Of a stretch of DNA of 36,777 bases, positions 7,541-21,139 are shown one piece after another. How positions within the stretch are numbered: position 1 is the stretch's first letter; every line of letters begins with the position of its first letter. The position numbers were made by a program, and so were the translations under genes. Source of the DNA: Methanocorpusculum sp. (lineage in GTDB: Archaea > Halobacteriota > Methanomicrobia > Methanomicrobiales > Methanocorpusculaceae); the NCBI GenBank assembly GCA_017399555.1, contig JAFQBW010000051.1:1-36777 (forward strand), given 5' to 3'. The notes below the pieces were generated by a model, which made no database searches, was not told the origin of the DNA, and saw only the letters and a program-made list of their open reading frames with translations.

Positions 7541-8719
7541 ATGAAAGCCTGCATTATGTGCGGCGGAGAAGGCACGCGTCTTCGCCCGCTCACGTTTGAA
7601 CGCCCGAAACCGTGTATTCCGGTGGCAAATCAGCCGTCAATCGCCCACCTGGTAACACACCTTGCAGACCTCGGGTTTACTGATATTGTCATTACCATCG
7701 GATACTTAGGAGACGATATCCAGAAAGCCTTAGGCGACGGCTCACTTTATGGAGCAAACATTACGTATGTTTCCGAGGAAGTGAAGCTCGGTACTGCCGG
7801 CAGTGTGAAAAATGCCCAGAAGTACTTAGAAGATGCACCGTTTTTAGTTGTCGGCGGAGACCACATGACGGACTTAAACGTCCTCGAGTTCTACCGCGAC
7901 CACATGGCAAGCCCGGCAGTTACTTCAATCGGCTTAATCAGCATTGAAGACCCGCGTGAGTTTGGTATTGCAGAGATTGATGCAAACCTGCGTATCAGAA
8001 GATTCCGCGAAAAGCCTGCTCCGGGAGAGATTTTCTCCAACCTTGCAAGCACGGGAATCTATGTCTGCGACCCGATGATTTTCGACTACATCCCTGAAAA
8101 CACCAAGTTCGATTTCGCAAAGGATCTCTTCCCTCTGCTGATGGAACGCGGATTCCAGATTAACGGCTGGCTTGCCCGCGGAAACTGGACGGATGTCGGA
8201 AATCCGGCTATGCTTCGGGCAGCAGAAAAATGGAAGCTTCAGGAAAACACCGCAACCAGCATTGCAGGCTCATTAAATGTAAAGGATGCACACATCGCAG
8301 GCCCTGTCACCTTCGGTGACGGCATCACGCTTGGCGCAGGGTCCCGCGTGGTAGGTCCGGTTCTTGTTGGAAACGGCGTTACCATTGGCGAGAATGTTAT
8401 CATTGGCCCGTACACGAGTATCGGAGATAACTGTGTTATCAAGAGCGGGGCGAAGATCTTCTCCTCCTCCATTTACTCCGGTGTAGTTATCGGAAAGGAG
8501 ACCACCGTCTCCGGAAGTATCCTTGATATCAACACCACAATCGGCGATGACTGTTCCATTGAACACAACACCGTAATTGGTCCCCGTTGTGTTCTGCGTT
8601 CCGGAATCACCATTCATTCCGGCGTGCGCATCTGGCCGGATGTCATCGTGGAAGAAAACGCTGTCGTAAAGGAAAACATCCTAAACGACCGCTATGATAC
8701 AAAAGCTGACGGTTCATAA
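7541..8719 (+). CDS. NDP-sugar pyrophosphorylase (sugar-1-phosphate nucleotidyltransferase)
   Basis: A 392-residue enzyme that probably joins a sugar-1-phosphate to an NTP, giving an activated sugar for glycan or polysaccharide synthesis. The N-terminal Rossmann-like domain begins with GGEGTRLRPLTFERPKP, the nucleotide-binding signature, and has VVGGDHMTD as the likely metal/substrate loop. From about residue 245 the C-terminus is a left-handed beta-helix of hexapeptide repeats (IGENVIIGPYTSIGDN and similar). The archaeal family includes glucose-1-phosphate thymidylyl/uridylyl- and mannose-1-phosphate guanylyltransferases; sequence alone does not settle the substrate. The stop is 2 bp before the first symporter gene, so these genes are probably co-transcribed, which is an unusual pairing. 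Confidence 0.85.
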   Translation: MKACIMCGGEGTRLRPLTFERPKPCIPVANQPSIAHLVTHLADLGFTDIVITIGYLGDDIQKALGDGSLYGANITYVSEEVKLGTAGSVKNAQKYLEDAPFLVVGGDHMTDLNVLEFYRDHMASPAVTSIGLISIEDPREFGIAEIDANLRIRRFREKPAPGEIFSNLASTGIYVCDPMIFDYIPENTKFDFAKDLFPLLMERGFQINGWLARGNWTDVGNPAMLRAAEKWKLQENTATSIAGSLNVKDAHIAGPVTFGDGITLGAGSRVVGPVLVGNGVTIGENVIIGPYTSIGDNCVIKSGAKIFSSSIYSGVVIGKETTVSGSILDINTTIGDDCSIEHNTVIGPRCVLRSGITIHSGVRIWPDVIVEENAVVKENILNDRYDTKADGS

Positions 8720-8721
8720 AC

Positions 8722-10059
8722 ATGGCAGAACGACATCTATTCTCAAACAGGATGGGATTCATCCTCGCAACCGCAGGTGCTGCGGTTGGTCTTGGAAATA
8801 TCTGGCGTTTCCCGTATCTTGCAGCTGAGTACGGAGGAGGTATCTTCCTCTTAATTTATCTGCTCTTAGTAGTTACGCTCGGATTTACGATTATGATTAC
8901 CGAGATTGCTATCGGCAGAAGTACCGGCAGCGGAGTTCTCGGCGCATTCGCAAAAATCAGCCGTAAGTGGCGGTTTATCGGATACCTGTCCTTAATGGTT
9001 CCCTGTATCATTCTGCCGTACTATTCCGTTATCGGCGGATGGGTCATGAAGTACGGATTCGAGTTCATCACCGGAGGAGGTGCATTTATTGCCTCTGATG
9101 CAACCGGATTCTTCAATGCATTTACGCAAAGTATTGCGTCTCCTATCTTCTGGTCAGTGGTATTTATCCTGATTACCGGCGTTATCATGATGTTCGGCGT
9201 CCAGAAGGGAATTGAGCGGACGGCACGTGTTCTGATGCCGGTCTTAATTCTGATGCTCATCGGTCTTGCAATCTACTGTATCTGCATGCCGGGAGGTCTT
9301 GACGGTCTCTGGTACTATCTCTATCCGGACTTCTCGAAGTTTTCGTTTGATGCGGTTGTTGCCGCTATGGGGCAGCTGTTCTACTCGTTAACCCTTGGAT
9401 TCGGTGTGATGATTACCTACGGTTCCTACCTTGCAAAGAAGGAGAATCTGGAAAAGTCCGTTCATACAATCGAAATCTTCGACACGGGTGTTGCCCTTCT
9501 TGCCGGTCTGTTAGTCGTTCCGGCTGTCTTCGTCTTCTCCGGCGGTTCTCCGGAAGCACTCGGTTCCGGTCCCGGTCTGATGTTTATGGCTCTCCCTCAG
9601 GTTTTCGAGACCTTCCCGGGAGGAGACATTGTCGGTGCTCTCTTCTTCATCTGTGTGTTCTTCGCAGCCCTGACATCAGCTATCTGCATGTATGAGGTAC
9701 CGGTTGCAGCAATTATGGAGAAGTTCAATGTTTCCCGTCCGATTTCTGTGGGAATTGTTACGGCATTTACGCTCCTTGTCGCAGTTATCGTCTGTCTCGG
9801 ATACAATGTTCTCGACTTCATCGTCCTGAATGGTTACAACATCTTAGATATGCTTGACTTCTTCAGTAACAGCATTCTGTTGCCGGTTGTGGTGATTCTC
9901 ACCTGTATCTTAATCGGCTGGATTGTGAAGCCGAAGATTGTCATTGATGAAATTGAGGATGGGGGTCATACTTTTAAGATGAAGAAGATTTACCTCTTTG
10001 TCTTAAAGTACTTCGCACCGCTTGCTATTGCAGTTATTCTCCTGACGAATCTTCTCTAA
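8722..10059 (+). CDS. Neurotransmitter:sodium symporter (NSS/SNF) family transporter 1
   Basis: A 445-residue sodium-coupled transporter of the LeuT-fold NSS family, members of which import amino acids or related amines. The N-terminal signature GLGNIWRFPYLAAEYGGG, which contributes to the Na+ and substrate sites in TM1, is intact, as are GGWVMKYG and the FSGGSPEALGSGPGLMF stretch around TM7. About 11-12 hydrophobic segments can be counted, as in prokaryotic family members. It sits between the nucleotidyltransferase gene (2-bp gap) and a close paralogue that starts at the base after its stop codon. Substrate unknown. Confidence 0.9.
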   Translation: MAERHLFSNRMGFILATAGAAVGLGNIWRFPYLAAEYGGGIFLLIYLLLVVTLGFTIMITEIAIGRSTGSGVLGAFAKISRKWRFIGYLSLMVPCIILPYYSVIGGWVMKYGFEFITGGGAFIASDATGFFNAFTQSIASPIFWSVVFILITGVIMMFGVQKGIERTARVLMPVLILMLIGLAIYCICMPGGLDGLWYYLYPDFSKFSFDAVVAAMGQLFYSLTLGFGVMITYGSYLAKKENLEKSVHTIEIFDTGVALLAGLLVVPAVFVFSGGSPEALGSGPGLMFMALPQVFETFPGGDIVGALFFICVFFAALTSAICMYEVPVAAIMEKFNVSRPISVGIVTAFTLLVAVIVCLGYNVLDFIVLNGYNILDMLDFFSNSILLPVVVILTCILIGWIVKPKIVIDEIEDGGHTFKMKKIYLFVLKYFAPLAIAVILLTNLL

Positions 10060-11391
10060 ATGTCCTCCCGCAGCAGCTTCACGAATCGCATGGGTTTTGT
10101 CCTGGCGACCGCCGGAGCTGCTGTCGGACTTGGTAATATCTGGAGATTCCCCTATCTTGCCGCAGAGTACGGCGGGGGAATCTTTCTTTTAACTTATCTT
10201 CTTCTGGTCTTTTCCGCGGGTTTTGTTCTGGTGCTTACCGAAAGCGCTCTTGGACGTATGACTGGTTCGGGTGTGCTTTGCGCGTATGAGAAGATAAGCC
10301 GAAAGCTTTCGTTTGCAGGATATCTGACCTTTATCACTCCGCTGATTATTTTTTCATTCTACTCGGTTGTCGGAGGGTGGGTTATGTACTATGCCCTGCA
10401 GTTCATCATCGGAAACGGTTCTCTGCTTGCAGATTCCGGATACTTTTCGGCATTTACTGCAGAACCTGTAATCCCTGCTGTCTTTACGCTTATCTTTATC
10501 GCACTGACCGCATGGATTGTGCTTCGCGGTGTGCGCCGGGGAATTGAAAAGACAACACGTCTTTTAATGCCTGTTCTGCTTGTCATGCTTGTGGTTCTGG
10601 CTGCTTACTGTATCTGCATGCCTGGCGGTCTTGATGGTCTATGGTACTTCTTCTATCCTGACTTCTCGCAGTTCTCGGCAGAGCTTGTGCTGGCAGCTCT
10701 TGGTCAGATGTTTTTCACGCTCATGATAGGCTCTGGTGTTATTATGACTTACGGCTCGTATCTTTCGAAGAGTGAAAATCTGGTAAAGTCTGCTCATTCG
10801 ATTGATTTTTTCGATACAGCGGTTGCAATTTTAGCCGGTCTTCTGGTGATTCCGGCTGTCTTTGCTCTCTCAGGAGGCTCTCCTGAGACGCTTGGTTCCG
10901 GCCCTGCTCTGATGTTTATCGCGCTTCCTCAGGTCTTTGCGACATTCCCGCTTGGAGGGCTTATCGGTGCGGCATTTTTCCTGATGGTGTTCTTTGCTGC
11001 GGTAACCTCTTCTGTTTCTATGTATGAGGTGGCTGTCGCCTCGCTTACTGAGAAGTTTTCGATTTCAAGAAGGAAGGCGGTTCTTGGGATTACTGCCGGG
11101 GTTTCTATATCAGCAGTAATTGTTTCTCTCGGTTTTGGAGTTTTGGACTTTGTTCAGGTAAACGGAATGAACATTCTCGATATGCTTGATTTCCTTGGCA
11201 ACAGTGTCCTTCTGCCAATCTGTTCTCTTCTCGCATGCTTTGCGGCAGGATGGATTTTGAAGCCGAAGGCTGTTATTGATGAGATTTGTTCATGCGGGGT
11301 AAAGTTCCGTGGTCAGCAGGTGTTTTCGTTTGCCCTTCGGTACTTAGTGCCAGCGGCTATTCTGATTATTCTGATTACTGGTATATTTTAA
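10060..11391 (+). CDS. Neurotransmitter:sodium symporter (NSS/SNF) family transporter 2
   Basis: A 443-residue paralogue of the preceding transporter; the first 40 residues are almost identical (GLGNIWRFPYLAAEYGGG) and long blocks match throughout, including YCICMPGGLDGLWY and NILDMLDF. The tandem arrangement with no intergenic base points to local duplication. The two differ most in the loops and the C-terminal tail, so they may have different amino acid substrates or form a functional pair; this is inference. The start ATG directly follows the TAA of the first copy. The 3' end overlaps the convergent methylthiotransferase gene by 17 bp. Confidence 0.9.
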   Translation: MSSRSSFTNRMGFVLATAGAAVGLGNIWRFPYLAAEYGGGIFLLTYLLLVFSAGFVLVLTESALGRMTGSGVLCAYEKISRKLSFAGYLTFITPLIIFSFYSVVGGWVMYYALQFIIGNGSLLADSGYFSAFTAEPVIPAVFTLIFIALTAWIVLRGVRRGIEKTTRLLMPVLLVMLVVLAAYCICMPGGLDGLWYFFYPDFSQFSAELVLAALGQMFFTLMIGSGVIMTYGSYLSKSENLVKSAHSIDFFDTAVAILAGLLVIPAVFALSGGSPETLGSGPALMFIALPQVFATFPLGGLIGAAFFLMVFFAAVTSSVSMYEVAVASLTEKFSISRRKAVLGITAGVSISAVIVSLGFGVLDFVQVNGMNILDMLDFLGNSVLLPICSLLACFAAGWILKPKAVIDEICSCGVKFRGQQVFSFALRYLVPAAILIILITGIF

Positions 11392-16815: not shown

Positions 16816-18201
16816 TTAATCCAGCAGAGTAATCTTTCTCTTCAGACACTTCTCGCACGGAATATCCACCGGATACTCGCCGCACGAACAGGCAATACAG
16901 AGATCCTCTGCCGGAATACCGACAGACTCAACCAGTTCTTCTGCTGAGATATATTCCAGAGTCGTTGCATGAATCGTCTCACGGATTTCCTCAACCGAAC
17001 GGTTCGTCGCAATCAGCTCCTCTCTGGTCGGGAGGTCAACACCGAAGTAGCACGGGGCAATAATCGGTGTAGAACCGATTCTCATATGAATCTCCTTTGC
17101 CCCGAACTCCTTCACCATATCAACGATATGAAGCGACGTCGTGCCTCTCACAATACTGTCATCCACTAAGACAACCGACTTATCCTTAATGTGGCTTCTG
17201 ACCGGATTTAACTTCATGCGGACCGCGTTCTCACGCTTCGACTGTCCCGGCATGATAAACGTCCGTCCCACATATCTGTTCTTCAAAAGACCCTCGATAT
17301 ACGGAATGCCGGACTCTGCAGAGTATCCGGTAGCAAATGCAGTTCCGGAATCCGGAACCGGCGAGACCAGGTCTGCCTCAGTCGGGATTTTCCCTAAGCG
17401 TGCACCGATTCTTCTTCTTGCATCATATACTAACACCCCGTCTATAACCGAATCCGGACGTGCCGTATAGACATACTCAAAGATACAGTGTGCCTTGTGT
17501 TCCGCTTTTGCAAACTGCACCGACTCAAAAGCCTCTTTGGTAAAGATAAGAAGCTCTCCTGCCTCCACATCACGGACAAGTTCTGCTCCGGTGATATCTA
17601 AGGCAACACTCTCGGAAACAACCAGATAACCTCTCTCGGTCTTTCCGAAACAGAGCGGTTTAATGCCAAGCGGATCGCGGAATGCATAGAGTATTCCGTC
17701 CAGCGTTGCAACGCCCGTGTATGCTCCTTCCAGACGGTGGAGTGTGCGGACAAACGCATCGCGCGGAGATGCTCCGCCGATTAACTCATGTGCAATAATT
17801 GCCGCAATTATTTCTGCGTTCGATGTTGTTGAAAAGATATGTCCCTTCCCCTCGTACTCAGACCGAAGGCTCTCGCTGTTGATAAGCGATGCGGAAACAG
17901 ACACGGATAAATGATGTCCCTGGAACGAAAAGTTCAGCGGCTGAATATTTTCATTCTTCCCGCGGGATGCTTTCTCAGTATAGAGAACCTGAGCAACGCC
18001 GCAGAATCCGGGAAGTGTACGTAATCTGTCTTCAGAAAAAACTTCGGAAAGCTGACCGGGTGCCTTATAGAGATAGGCTTTTTCCCCGTCAAAAGTAGAA
18101 ATGCCTGCTGCCTCCTGGCCTCTGTGCTGGAGGGCGTGCAGTGCATAATAAAGGGGGTATGAGACATCCTGCGTTTCGATGATGCCTGCGATACCGCTCA
18201 T
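16816..18201 (-). CDS. purF: Amidophosphoribosyltransferase with degenerate glutaminase domain
   Basis: A 461-residue homologue of PurF, the first enzyme of de novo purine synthesis (PRPP to phosphoribosylamine). The C-terminal transferase keeps its PRPP loop VVLVDDSIVRGTT (343-355), and Cys239, 384, 435 and 438 are spaced like the Fe-S cluster ligands of Bacillus-type PurF. The N-terminal glutaminase domain has the fold signature (LQHRGQEAAGIST) but lacks key residues: the protein starts MSGIAGI instead of MCGIVGI, the Arg-Tyr-x-Thr segment reads LYTE, the oxyanion Asn-Gly of AHNGN is absent (SVSASLIN), and TSDxE reads TSNAE. It may therefore use free ammonia. It ends the LSm-L37e-PurF cluster, 12 bp after the L37e stop. 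A second, intact PurF elsewhere in the genome cannot be excluded. Confidence 0.85.
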   Translation of the reverse strand: MSGIAGIIETQDVSYPLYYALHALQHRGQEAAGISTFDGEKAYLYKAPGQLSEVFSEDRLRTLPGFCGVAQVLYTEKASRGKNENIQPLNFSFQGHHLSVSVSASLINSESLRSEYEGKGHIFSTTSNAEIIAAIIAHELIGGASPRDAFVRTLHRLEGAYTGVATLDGILYAFRDPLGIKPLCFGKTERGYLVVSESVALDITGAELVRDVEAGELLIFTKEAFESVQFAKAEHKAHCIFEYVYTARPDSVIDGVLVYDARRRIGARLGKIPTEADLVSPVPDSGTAFATGYSAESGIPYIEGLLKNRYVGRTFIMPGQSKRENAVRMKLNPVRSHIKDKSVVLVDDSIVRGTTSLHIVDMVKEFGAKEIHMRIGSTPIIAPCYFGVDLPTREELIATNRSVEEIRETIHATTLEYISAEELVESVGIPAEDLCIACSCGEYPVDIPCEKCLKRKITLLD

Positions 18202-18213
18202 AATGTGACCTTT

Positions 18214-18387
18214 TTAATTGTCTCTTGCTTTTGTCGTCCAGTTGTACTTCCGCAGCTTGGAGCTCTTGCCGAATCCGCAGGAAGAGCAGACTCCGTGGCG
18301 TGCGTGGTAAGACATCTTACCGCAGCGGCGGCAGATAATGTGGGAGTGCTTGTTGCGCAGACCCATTGATGGTGTGCCTTTTGTCAT
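18214..18387 (-). CDS. rpl37e: 50S ribosomal protein L37e
   Basis: A 57-residue zinc-ribbon ribosomal protein of the large subunit, found in archaea and eukaryotes. It begins [20 protein letters not shown] and has two CxxC pairs (CRRCG and CSSCGFG) for one zinc ion, then the basic tail [16 protein letters not shown]. Length and motif order are typical. It starts 22 bp after the LSm stop and ends 12 bp before the PurF start, so the three genes probably form one transcript, a pairing of LSm with L37e common in euryarchaea. Confidence 0.95.
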
Positions 18388-18409: not shown

Positions 18410-18697
<288 letters not shown>

Positions 18698-20089: not shown

Positions 20090-21139
20090 ATGTCGAATCA
20101 TAGAATAATTGTGGCGGAGTCCATTCCGGACTATCCGGCAGGGCCTGAGGAAAAATTCCTCAACCTGCCTGATGTCGCGGAAGAGGAAATCATCGAAACC
20201 GAACAGCAGACCCCGCCTGCGGAGAAAGCCGAGCCGCTGTTTTCCGAGATTCCCGAACCGGAAGTCCTGAAACAGCAGCTTGCTTCAATAGATGAAGATA
20301 CCGCCGCTTTTGTTGTCTCATCCACGGAACTGTTCAAGACCTGCGTTCTGCCGAACAAGACGGAACTGCAGGAACGAAATCTGAAAACAAAAAGCGACAT
20401 TTTAGTCGGAGACCACTGTAATATCGGATACGGTCTCTACGGAAATGATATCGCAATCTGCGAACTCTCCACCATGCACGGAGACGTCGTTGCCGAAGGA
20501 GATCTTCGTATCGACAACTTCTGCGAAGTGCATGGAACGGTTATCTGCAACGGCGACGCCTACTTAGGCGAAGGCGTGAAGATTCACGGAAAACTCACCG
20601 TCGGCGGAAACCTCGACATCGGCGATAACGTAACGATTGACAAAGAGTTCAAGGCCTTAGGCGACATCGCCATTCGCAACCCCATGCCGGTGGTTCTCTA
20701 CCTCCTGCTGTATGTCATGACAATGCTCCACATCGAAGGAGAGGAGTCCACCAAGAGAAAACTCAACGAGCTGGTTGCCGAAGCACAGAGCACACCGCTT
20801 GTTCTGCCGCCGAAGACGACCATGGACCTTCGCTACTTCTCTGTGCCGACTCCAATGGAGATTGGCTCCAACTGCCGTCTGCACGGAAACATCAAGGCAG
20901 AGACCGTCAAGGTCAGAAAGGATACTACCATCTTCGGCAGCATCCAGGCATCGAAGCGGGTTAAGGTTGGTCCGCGTGATGCGGTCCACGGAGATGTTGC
21001 GGCAAAGAACATCCGCGTTGAACGCGGGGCAGATATCTTAGGAGACCTTATCGGCAATCTGGTCTGGCTGCATGAGGATGCCAGAGTCAGCGGGGTAATC
21101 AAGGCAACGGAAGGCCTGACGATTGGAAGAAACGAGTAA
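20090..21139 (+). CDS. Bactofilin-like polymer-forming / beta-helix protein
   Basis: A 349-residue protein with an acidic, probably disordered N-terminus (1-75, rich in Glu and Pro) and two stretches of short beta-helix repeats (about 95-200 and 260-345) with patterns such as VHGTVICNGDAYLGEGVKIH and IHGKLTVGGNLDIGDNVTID. Between them lies one hydrophobic segment (PMPVVLYLLLYVMTML). No acetyltransferase active-site His is obvious, so a structural, filament-forming role like that of bactofilins is more likely than acyl transfer; this is inference. AGGAAAGG directly before the ATG is a good ribosome binding site. The methyltransferase-like gene follows after 1 bp. Confidence 0.65.
   Translation: MSNHRIIVAESIPDYPAGPEEKFLNLPDVAEEEIIETEQQTPPAEKAEPLFSEIPEPEVLKQQLASIDEDTAAFVVSSTELFKTCVLPNKTELQERNLKTKSDILVGDHCNIGYGLYGNDIAICELSTMHGDVVAEGDLRIDNFCEVHGTVICNGDAYLGEGVKIHGKLTVGGNLDIGDNVTIDKEFKALGDIAIRNPMPVVLYLLLYVMTMLHIEGEESTKRKLNELVAEAQSTPLVLPPKTTMDLRYFSVPTPMEIGSNCRLHGNIKAETVKVRKDTTIFGSIQASKRVKVGPRDAVHGDVAAKNIRVERGADILGDLIGNLVWLHEDARVSGVIKATEGLTIGRNE

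Follow-up and report, generated by a model that had tools for sequence, protein, structure and literature searches.

PurF releases ammonia from glutamine in one half of the protein, and a channel carries this ammonia to phosphoribosyl pyrophosphate (PRPP) in the other half. Two departures from this scheme are already on record: Mlab_0150 of Methanocorpusculum labreanum, in which Ser stands in place of the catalytic Cys and which was reported as a recent duplicate (Brown et al. 2011, PMC3261824), and the crenarchaeal PurF' cluster, whose members lack the N-terminal Cys, occur beside a normal PurF and were proposed to be possible ammonia users (PMC3261824). That article states that Escherichia coli PurF can still work with ammonia, and no longer with glutamine, once its catalytic Cys is changed to Ser or Ala (PMC3261824, citing Mei and Zalkin 1989), and in 2011 it posed as an open question whether PurF without a glutaminase acts on ammonia (PMC3261824). 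Our subject is a related gene in a 36,777-nucleotide stretch of Methanocorpusculum sp. (GenBank assembly GCA_017399555.1, contig JAFQBW010000051.1, positions 1 to 36,777; hereafter the window). At 16816..18201 on the minus strand, it encodes a 461-residue PurF paralogue with an apparently inactivated glutaminase half (altered PurF), from an ATG start to a stop codon at 16816-16818.

Like Mlab_0150, the altered PurF has Ser at the position of the catalytic Cys and shares its genome with a normal PurF (Mlab_0202 in M. labreanum). It and Mlab_0150 are orthologous, falling in a single clade and occupying the same place in the gene order. In the genome that we take to be M. labreanum strain Z (G014), the altered gene lies at 136 kb and the normal one at 191 kb, which would fit the order of Mlab_0150 and Mlab_0202. 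The novelty implied by the first-pass annotation of this locus is lowered by the 2011 report of the orthologous gene; both the altered M. labreanum orthologue and, as a kind, the crenarchaeal PurF' are already known (PMC3261824). What goes beyond the Mlab_0150 report is the near-complete loss of the glutamine site (12 of 13 listed positions), its fixation across the genus, selection on both halves of the protein and the ancestral position of the altered copy in the gene order. No later work on the altered purF beyond PMC3261824 was found among the literature matches listed, which leave most subscription journals uncovered.

The crenarchaeal PurF' are likewise Cys-less proteins from genomes that also encode a normal PurF. 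By description, however, PurF' often carries Ala or Val for the Cys and lies near purF and purine genes, whereas the altered PurF carries Ser and has an Lsm gene and the ribosomal protein L37e gene as neighbours; such purine-gene clustering was not found, the normal purF of the window genome being on another contig. Judging from the Methanomicrobiales tree, the altered PurF probably originated independently of PurF'. It differs from canonical PurF, or glutamine PRPP amidotransferase (GPATase; Bacillus subtilis 1ao0, E. coli 1ecf, 8w7d), in that its glutamine site is lost. A further comparison is with beta-lactam and carbapenam synthetases (1jgt, 1q19), which have an AsnB-type partner domain in place of a phosphoribosyltransferase (PRTase) and quite different chemistry.

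The glutamine site and the phosphoribosyltransferase half

A dead glutaminase site coupled to an apparently intact PRTase half is well supported by the sequence comparisons. The altered PurF passes the family profile test (TIGR01134, the purF equivalog model, 446.3 bits against a cut-off of 350), aligns over nearly its full length to B. subtilis and E. coli PurF and is modelled as a complete PurF fold. The plus-strand frame across 16816-18201 is interrupted by stops and the open frame is that of the minus strand, a point absent from the first-pass annotation. Near the start of the protein (MSGIAGI), the codon at the N-terminal nucleophile position (18196..18198, minus strand) specifies Ser2 (C1S; E. 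coli numbering for replacements), Ser being found in 23/23 altered orthologues and Cys in 43/43 canonical PurFs. The glutamine loop (residues 71-78; 17968..17991, minus) reads AQVLYTE for GHVRYPT, with H71Q, R73L, P75T, T76E, A77K and G78A and with Y74 kept. The oxyanion stretch reads VSVSASLIN for LAHNGNLTN, its HNGN having become VSAS (H100V, N101S, G102A, N103S; residues 102-105; 17887..17898, minus), and TSDSE has become TSNAE through D127N at residue 128 (17818..17820, minus; Asn in 21/23 altered copies, Asp in 2/23). These replacements complete the list for the window protein, in which all five of the glutamine and oxyanion residues R73, T76, N101, G102 and D127 are exchanged; Arg26 (QHRGQ) is retained.

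The pattern is common to the genus. All 23 altered orthologues share the S-G-I start, an [AG]-Q-V-L-Y glutamine loop and the disappearance of HNGN; H71Q, R73L, A77K (23/23) and N101S are fixed, and there is small variation, with D127 retained in two sequences and G102 in one. A shifted-register alignment was rejected, as the flanking QHRGQ, Y74, L106, N108 and E130 (window numbering) are invariant in a 49-row alignment. The first-pass annotation had proposed a PurF with an apparently dead glutaminase domain at this place, citing the MSGIAGI start, AQVLYTE, VSASLIN and TSNAE, and the comparison it suggested with PurF of E. coli, B. subtilis and other Methanomicrobiales bears out each of these departures as real losses in register. 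Its argument that several independent losses speak against a sequencing error was also right: 22 further genomes show the same pattern, and a sequencing or binning error was rejected on this ground. A two-residue insertion (for example, QD) just after the dead oxyanion segment occurs in 9/23 altered copies (L010, L011, L013-L016, L018, L024 and L025); an active glutaminase would hardly tolerate such an insertion.

The concentration of the losses was assessed over 166 columns that are near-invariant in the 43 canonical PurFs, a column counting as replaced when changed in at least 90% of the 23 altered orthologues. Twenty of the 166 columns are replaced, 15 of them in the glutaminase half. With glutamine-site and PRPP/channel positions taken from our own compilation, the replaced columns include 12 of 13 glutamine-site positions (hypergeometric 2.6e-12), 7 of 8 on a stricter list (9.5e-7) and 0 of 16 PRPP/channel positions. 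Arg73, Thr76, Ala77 and Gly102 are described as contacting the glutamine analogue 6-diazo-5-oxo-L-norleucine (DON), and Y74 and I335 as forming the ammonia-channel wall (PMC7953260).

The type I PRTase PRPP loop, the flexible loop and the ammonia-channel residues are present in the altered PurF, F259 beside the channel residue Y258 being replaced. In the window protein, the flexible loop KNRYVGRTFIMPGQ (residues 307-320; 17242..17283, minus) and the PRPP-binding loop LVDDSIVRGTTS (residues 345-356; 17134..17169, minus) are intact. The channel residues Y74, Y258, F334 and I335 are retained in 23/23 altered copies, as are D366, D367, R371, G372, T373, T374, R332, K326 and R342; T333 and K349 are each retained in 22/23, single sequences varying. 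Four Cys of the iron-sulfur (Fe-S) type found in B. subtilis (residues 239, 384, 435 and 438, spanning 16888..17487, minus) are Cys in 23/23 altered and 43/43 canonical copies, so that the earlier observation of a kept PRPP loop and four putative Fe-S Cys also holds.

Selection was analysed in 153 pairs among 18 genomes holding both copies. The median ratio of the nonsynonymous rate (dN) in altered to normal copies is 1.01 for the glutaminase half and 0.86 for the PRTase half. Median dN/dS (pairs with synonymous rate dS < 1.5) is 0.090 and 0.050 for the two halves of the altered copy, and 0.057 and 0.052 for those of the normal copy. Both halves of the altered copy are under purifying selection, the glutaminase half under somewhat relaxed constraint, and the altered purF is therefore no decaying gene. 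Mean identity between altered and normal copies is about 50% in the glutaminase half and 63% in the PRTase half.

Distribution, gene order and duplication

A second purF, which the first-pass annotation had suggested looking for, exists in the window genome: an intact copy on another contig (G000:C17:12790-14166), 53% identical to the altered PurF and bearing MCGIAG, GHVRYPTTG, VHNGNL and TSDTE. Across 25 Methanocorpusculum genomes, one per species and including that of the window, the altered copy occurs in 23 and the normal copy in 20, with both in 19, the altered copy alone in four, the normal copy alone in one and neither in one. All 12 genomes at least 90% complete carry both. The normal copy was not found in five of the 25, all less than 80% complete: G005, which lacks both copies, and G010, G022, G023 and G024, in which the altered copy stands alone. 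From the sum of one minus completeness over the 13 genomes below 90%, about 3.2 absences would be expected for each gene; five were observed for the normal and two for the altered copy. In G024, the PAS-PdaD-nrdJ place and that of a 308-residue gene are both assembled without the normal copy; since the place varies among relatives (G008 differs), these empty places do not establish its loss. Five named Methanocorpusculum loci from metagenome-assembled genomes (MAGs) are 73% to 99% identical to the altered PurF and one from a Methanospirillaceae MAG is 53% identical; four of the five come from the hindgut (colon or rectum) of water deer, goat, water buffalo and cattle, the 99% match being the water-deer MAG. 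These matches place the window in Methanocorpusculum; elsewhere, copies of the genus span 66% to 99%.

Among 232 genomes of the class (PurF matches with E up to 1e-40), more than one match was found in 19 genomes of Methanocorpusculum and in 2/207 outside it: three copies are present in G193, and in G175 the matches are two partial pieces on separate contigs. In a 120-genome sample of the phylum, G292 has two full-length PurFs, both normal at R73, N101, G102 and D127, and in G287 a single gene is split into two pieces. The residues of the active site were inspected in part of the surveyed genomes, namely 24 canonical PurFs of the order, some further loci and 24 PurFs from the rest of the phylum, the last retaining R73, N101, G102 and D127 in 24/24; of 36 genomes outside the genus, 24 were aligned, 11 were left out of the alignment and G031 has a partial gene. 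G193, of the same order, carries a normal purF and two tandem extra PurF-like genes on a single contig (L116:7073-8518 and 8690-10114, minus strand), which retain the Cys and main glutamine residues and have an altered PRPP flexible loop (changes to GRTFI in both genes, and KGT for RGT in one), a mirror image of the window gene. Nearby lie, among others, a TrkA/RyR-domain gene and two DeoC/LacD-type aldolase genes.

Gene order identifies the copy that moved. In the window, the L37e gene (18214..18387, minus; NF003214, 92 bits) lies 12 bases upstream of the altered purF, probably in the same operon, and is preceded by the archaeal Sm-like gene Lsm (18410..18688, minus; PF01423), the first of the Lsm-L37e-purF block. 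L37e adjoins purF in 23/23 altered loci, 7/7 sister-genus loci with a single canonical copy and 17/17 other examined loci of the order, and in 0/19 loci of the normal Methanocorpusculum copy. Lsm is present at 21/23 altered loci (the other two being cut by contig ends), in 24/24 relatives and at 0/19 normal copies; in all 24 relatives examined from outside the genus, this block is where the normal PurF is encoded. Because the Lsm-L37e context is shared by the altered copy and the relatives, and never by the normal copy, it is the altered copy that stayed and the glutaminase-keeping copy that moved: the altered copy holds the ancestral place and the normal copy of the genus is displaced. The two genes thus occupy different places, not one operon. 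The normal copy lies in the order PAS-purF-PdaD-nrdJ in several species, and beside a 308-residue gene near amtB in the ruminant clade, which includes the window genome.

The phylogeny is less decisive on timing. The altered copies, including that of G014 (L021), form one clade at 100/100 in trees with 23 and with 11 altered rows. The normal copies of the genus form a separate clade, at 96/98 in a tree with B. subtilis and at 100/100 in a tree with 24 PurFs from elsewhere in the phylum as outgroup, which took 11/23 altered and 11/19 normal copies. In the former tree, the altered copies group with the outgroups at 86/67; in the latter, altered and normal copies are sisters at only 43/36. An arrangement that forces the altered copy to group with the outgroups passed the approximately unbiased test (p-AU 0.31). 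At residue 5, 24/24 relatives have Val, and Ala is found in 23/23 altered and 16/19 normal copies (Thr in the other 3); at residue 143, the relatives have Ser (23/24) or Thr (1/24), and all altered and normal copies have Gly or Asp. These shared changes speak for a duplication in the stem of Methanocorpusculum or close to it, which would be the simplest reading.

In the ruminant-gut clade (G000:C17:12790-16068, that is, L002 and L137; also L065 and L070), about 0.7 kb separates the normal, glutamine-using purF from amtB, which glnK adjoins in L065; amtB and glnK are genes for ammonium uptake. An ammonium transporter was not found in 7/25 genomes of the genus, namely all five without a normal PurF plus G012 and G015 (Fisher 0.0004); this association is not used as support, because completeness confounds it and the two genes are neighbours in the ruminant clade. 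In G024 and G022, a type I glutamine synthetase gene, glnA, is divergent from and adjoins the block with the altered purF (L139:11508-12926, minus; L128:3600-5084), assigned by TIGR00653 (520 bits) in L139 and by a similar start only in L128. Elsewhere in the window, 8722-11391 holds two adjoining methanogen genes of the sodium:neurotransmitter symporter family (SNF), perhaps a tandem duplication, and 20090-21139 encodes a hexapeptide and bactofilin-like repeat protein (polymer-forming cytoskeletal family) adjoining a phosphoglycerate mutase (PF10143) gene.

Function of the altered copy

We envision that purF was duplicated in or near the Methanocorpusculum stem, the resident copy losing its glutaminase site and the moved copy keeping it. 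In the altered PurF, the glutaminase step should fail, because the protein no longer has the nucleophile, the residue that binds the glutamine carboxylate (R73) or the oxyanion residues, and the PRPP step is intact on paper. The enzyme would then still make phosphoribosylamine from PRPP, taking free ammonia in place of glutamine-derived ammonia, with the former glutaminase half kept as a scaffold that may shape the PRTase site and the tetramer, and with glutamine-dependent activity supplied by the normal copy. PurD, the enzyme of the next step, is encoded (442.6 bits). Of the three options raised in the first-pass annotation, use of free ammonia fits best, and we put the probability of ammonia-dependent phosphoribosylamine synthesis (PRPP aminotransferase) at about 55%. 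It is judged likeliest because the E. coli Cys-to-Ser or Cys-to-Ala enzyme keeps ammonia use and because the PRPP half looks intact.

Several observations count against this assignment. An ammonia-only copy might be superfluous, given that intact PurF could also work with ammonia. The four genomes with the altered copy alone would favour ammonia use, yet all are less than 80% complete. Hindguts of the kind sampled above are rich in ammonia, which would suit ammonia use, yet the altered copy also occurs in M. labreanum, from tar-pit lake sediment. In 11/11 close pairs (which are not independent), dN is higher in the altered glutaminase half. Finally, the PRTase half is not unchanged, because Phe259, the neighbour of channel residue Tyr258, is Thr, Ile or Leu in 23/23 altered copies, against Phe in 43/43 canonical copies and 24/24 from elsewhere in the phylum. 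This last replacement suits a repurposed PRTase in which a different small nucleophile accepts the phosphoribosyl group from PRPP, as does the fixed A77K lysine in the former glutamine loop, which together with the fixed H71Q, R73L and N101S may form a new pocket. The remaining listed PRPP and channel residues are nevertheless those of an ordinary PurF, and the conserved Lsm and L37e neighbours point to no other pathway, so that we regard repurposing as improbable.

The other two options of the first-pass annotation, a regulatory role and ammonia supplied by a partner, stay together as the chief rival, which we consider possible, if doubtful: a regulatory or structural partner in mixed tetramers with normal PurF, acting as a nucleotide-sensing or PRPP-binding subunit or receiving ammonia from the glutaminase of a normal subunit. 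The presence of both copies in all 12 of the most complete genomes, a glutaminase half nearly as constrained as that of the intact paralogue and a retained fold in a family that forms homotetramers (PMC7056826) are all consistent with such a partner, and the changed F259 and the fixed new residues could be invoked for it as well. The genes lie apart, however, the two copies have diverged to the identities given above, and the catalytic PRPP and channel residues are kept, which a subunit with a regulatory task alone could do without. Some other N-terminal nucleophile (Ntn) hydrolases use Ser, and the replacement is Ser in 23/23 altered copies, as expected if Ser2 took over the function of Cys1. 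Such a Ser glutaminase is very improbable and was rejected, as R73 and N101 are gone in 23/23, G102 in 22/23 and D127 in 21/23, and the E. coli C1S enzyme is described as being without glutamine use (PMC3261824). That many catalytic residues are missing could also indicate a pseudogene or an assembly or sequencing artefact, an explanation to which we give almost no weight given the open frame and same losses in 23/25 genomes of the genus and dN/dS well below 1.

Ammonia-dependent synthesis could be extended to a bolder scenario, which we consider rather unlikely: the ancestral purF would have become a dedicated ammonia-only synthase carrying much of the purine flux, the displaced glutamine-dependent copy would serve at low ammonia, and some hindgut lineages (such as the G022/G024 pair) would have dropped the normal copy. 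Irrespective of this scenario, Methanocorpusculum provides a clean test case, with a cultured species (M. labreanum) holding both copies, 25 genomes, and a glutamine site that has been erased while the rest of the protein is held. The gene order reverses the published account as to which of the two copies is the new arrival, and the automatic equivalog call (TIGR01134, 446 versus 350 bits) names a protein that is without the site for its defining activity.
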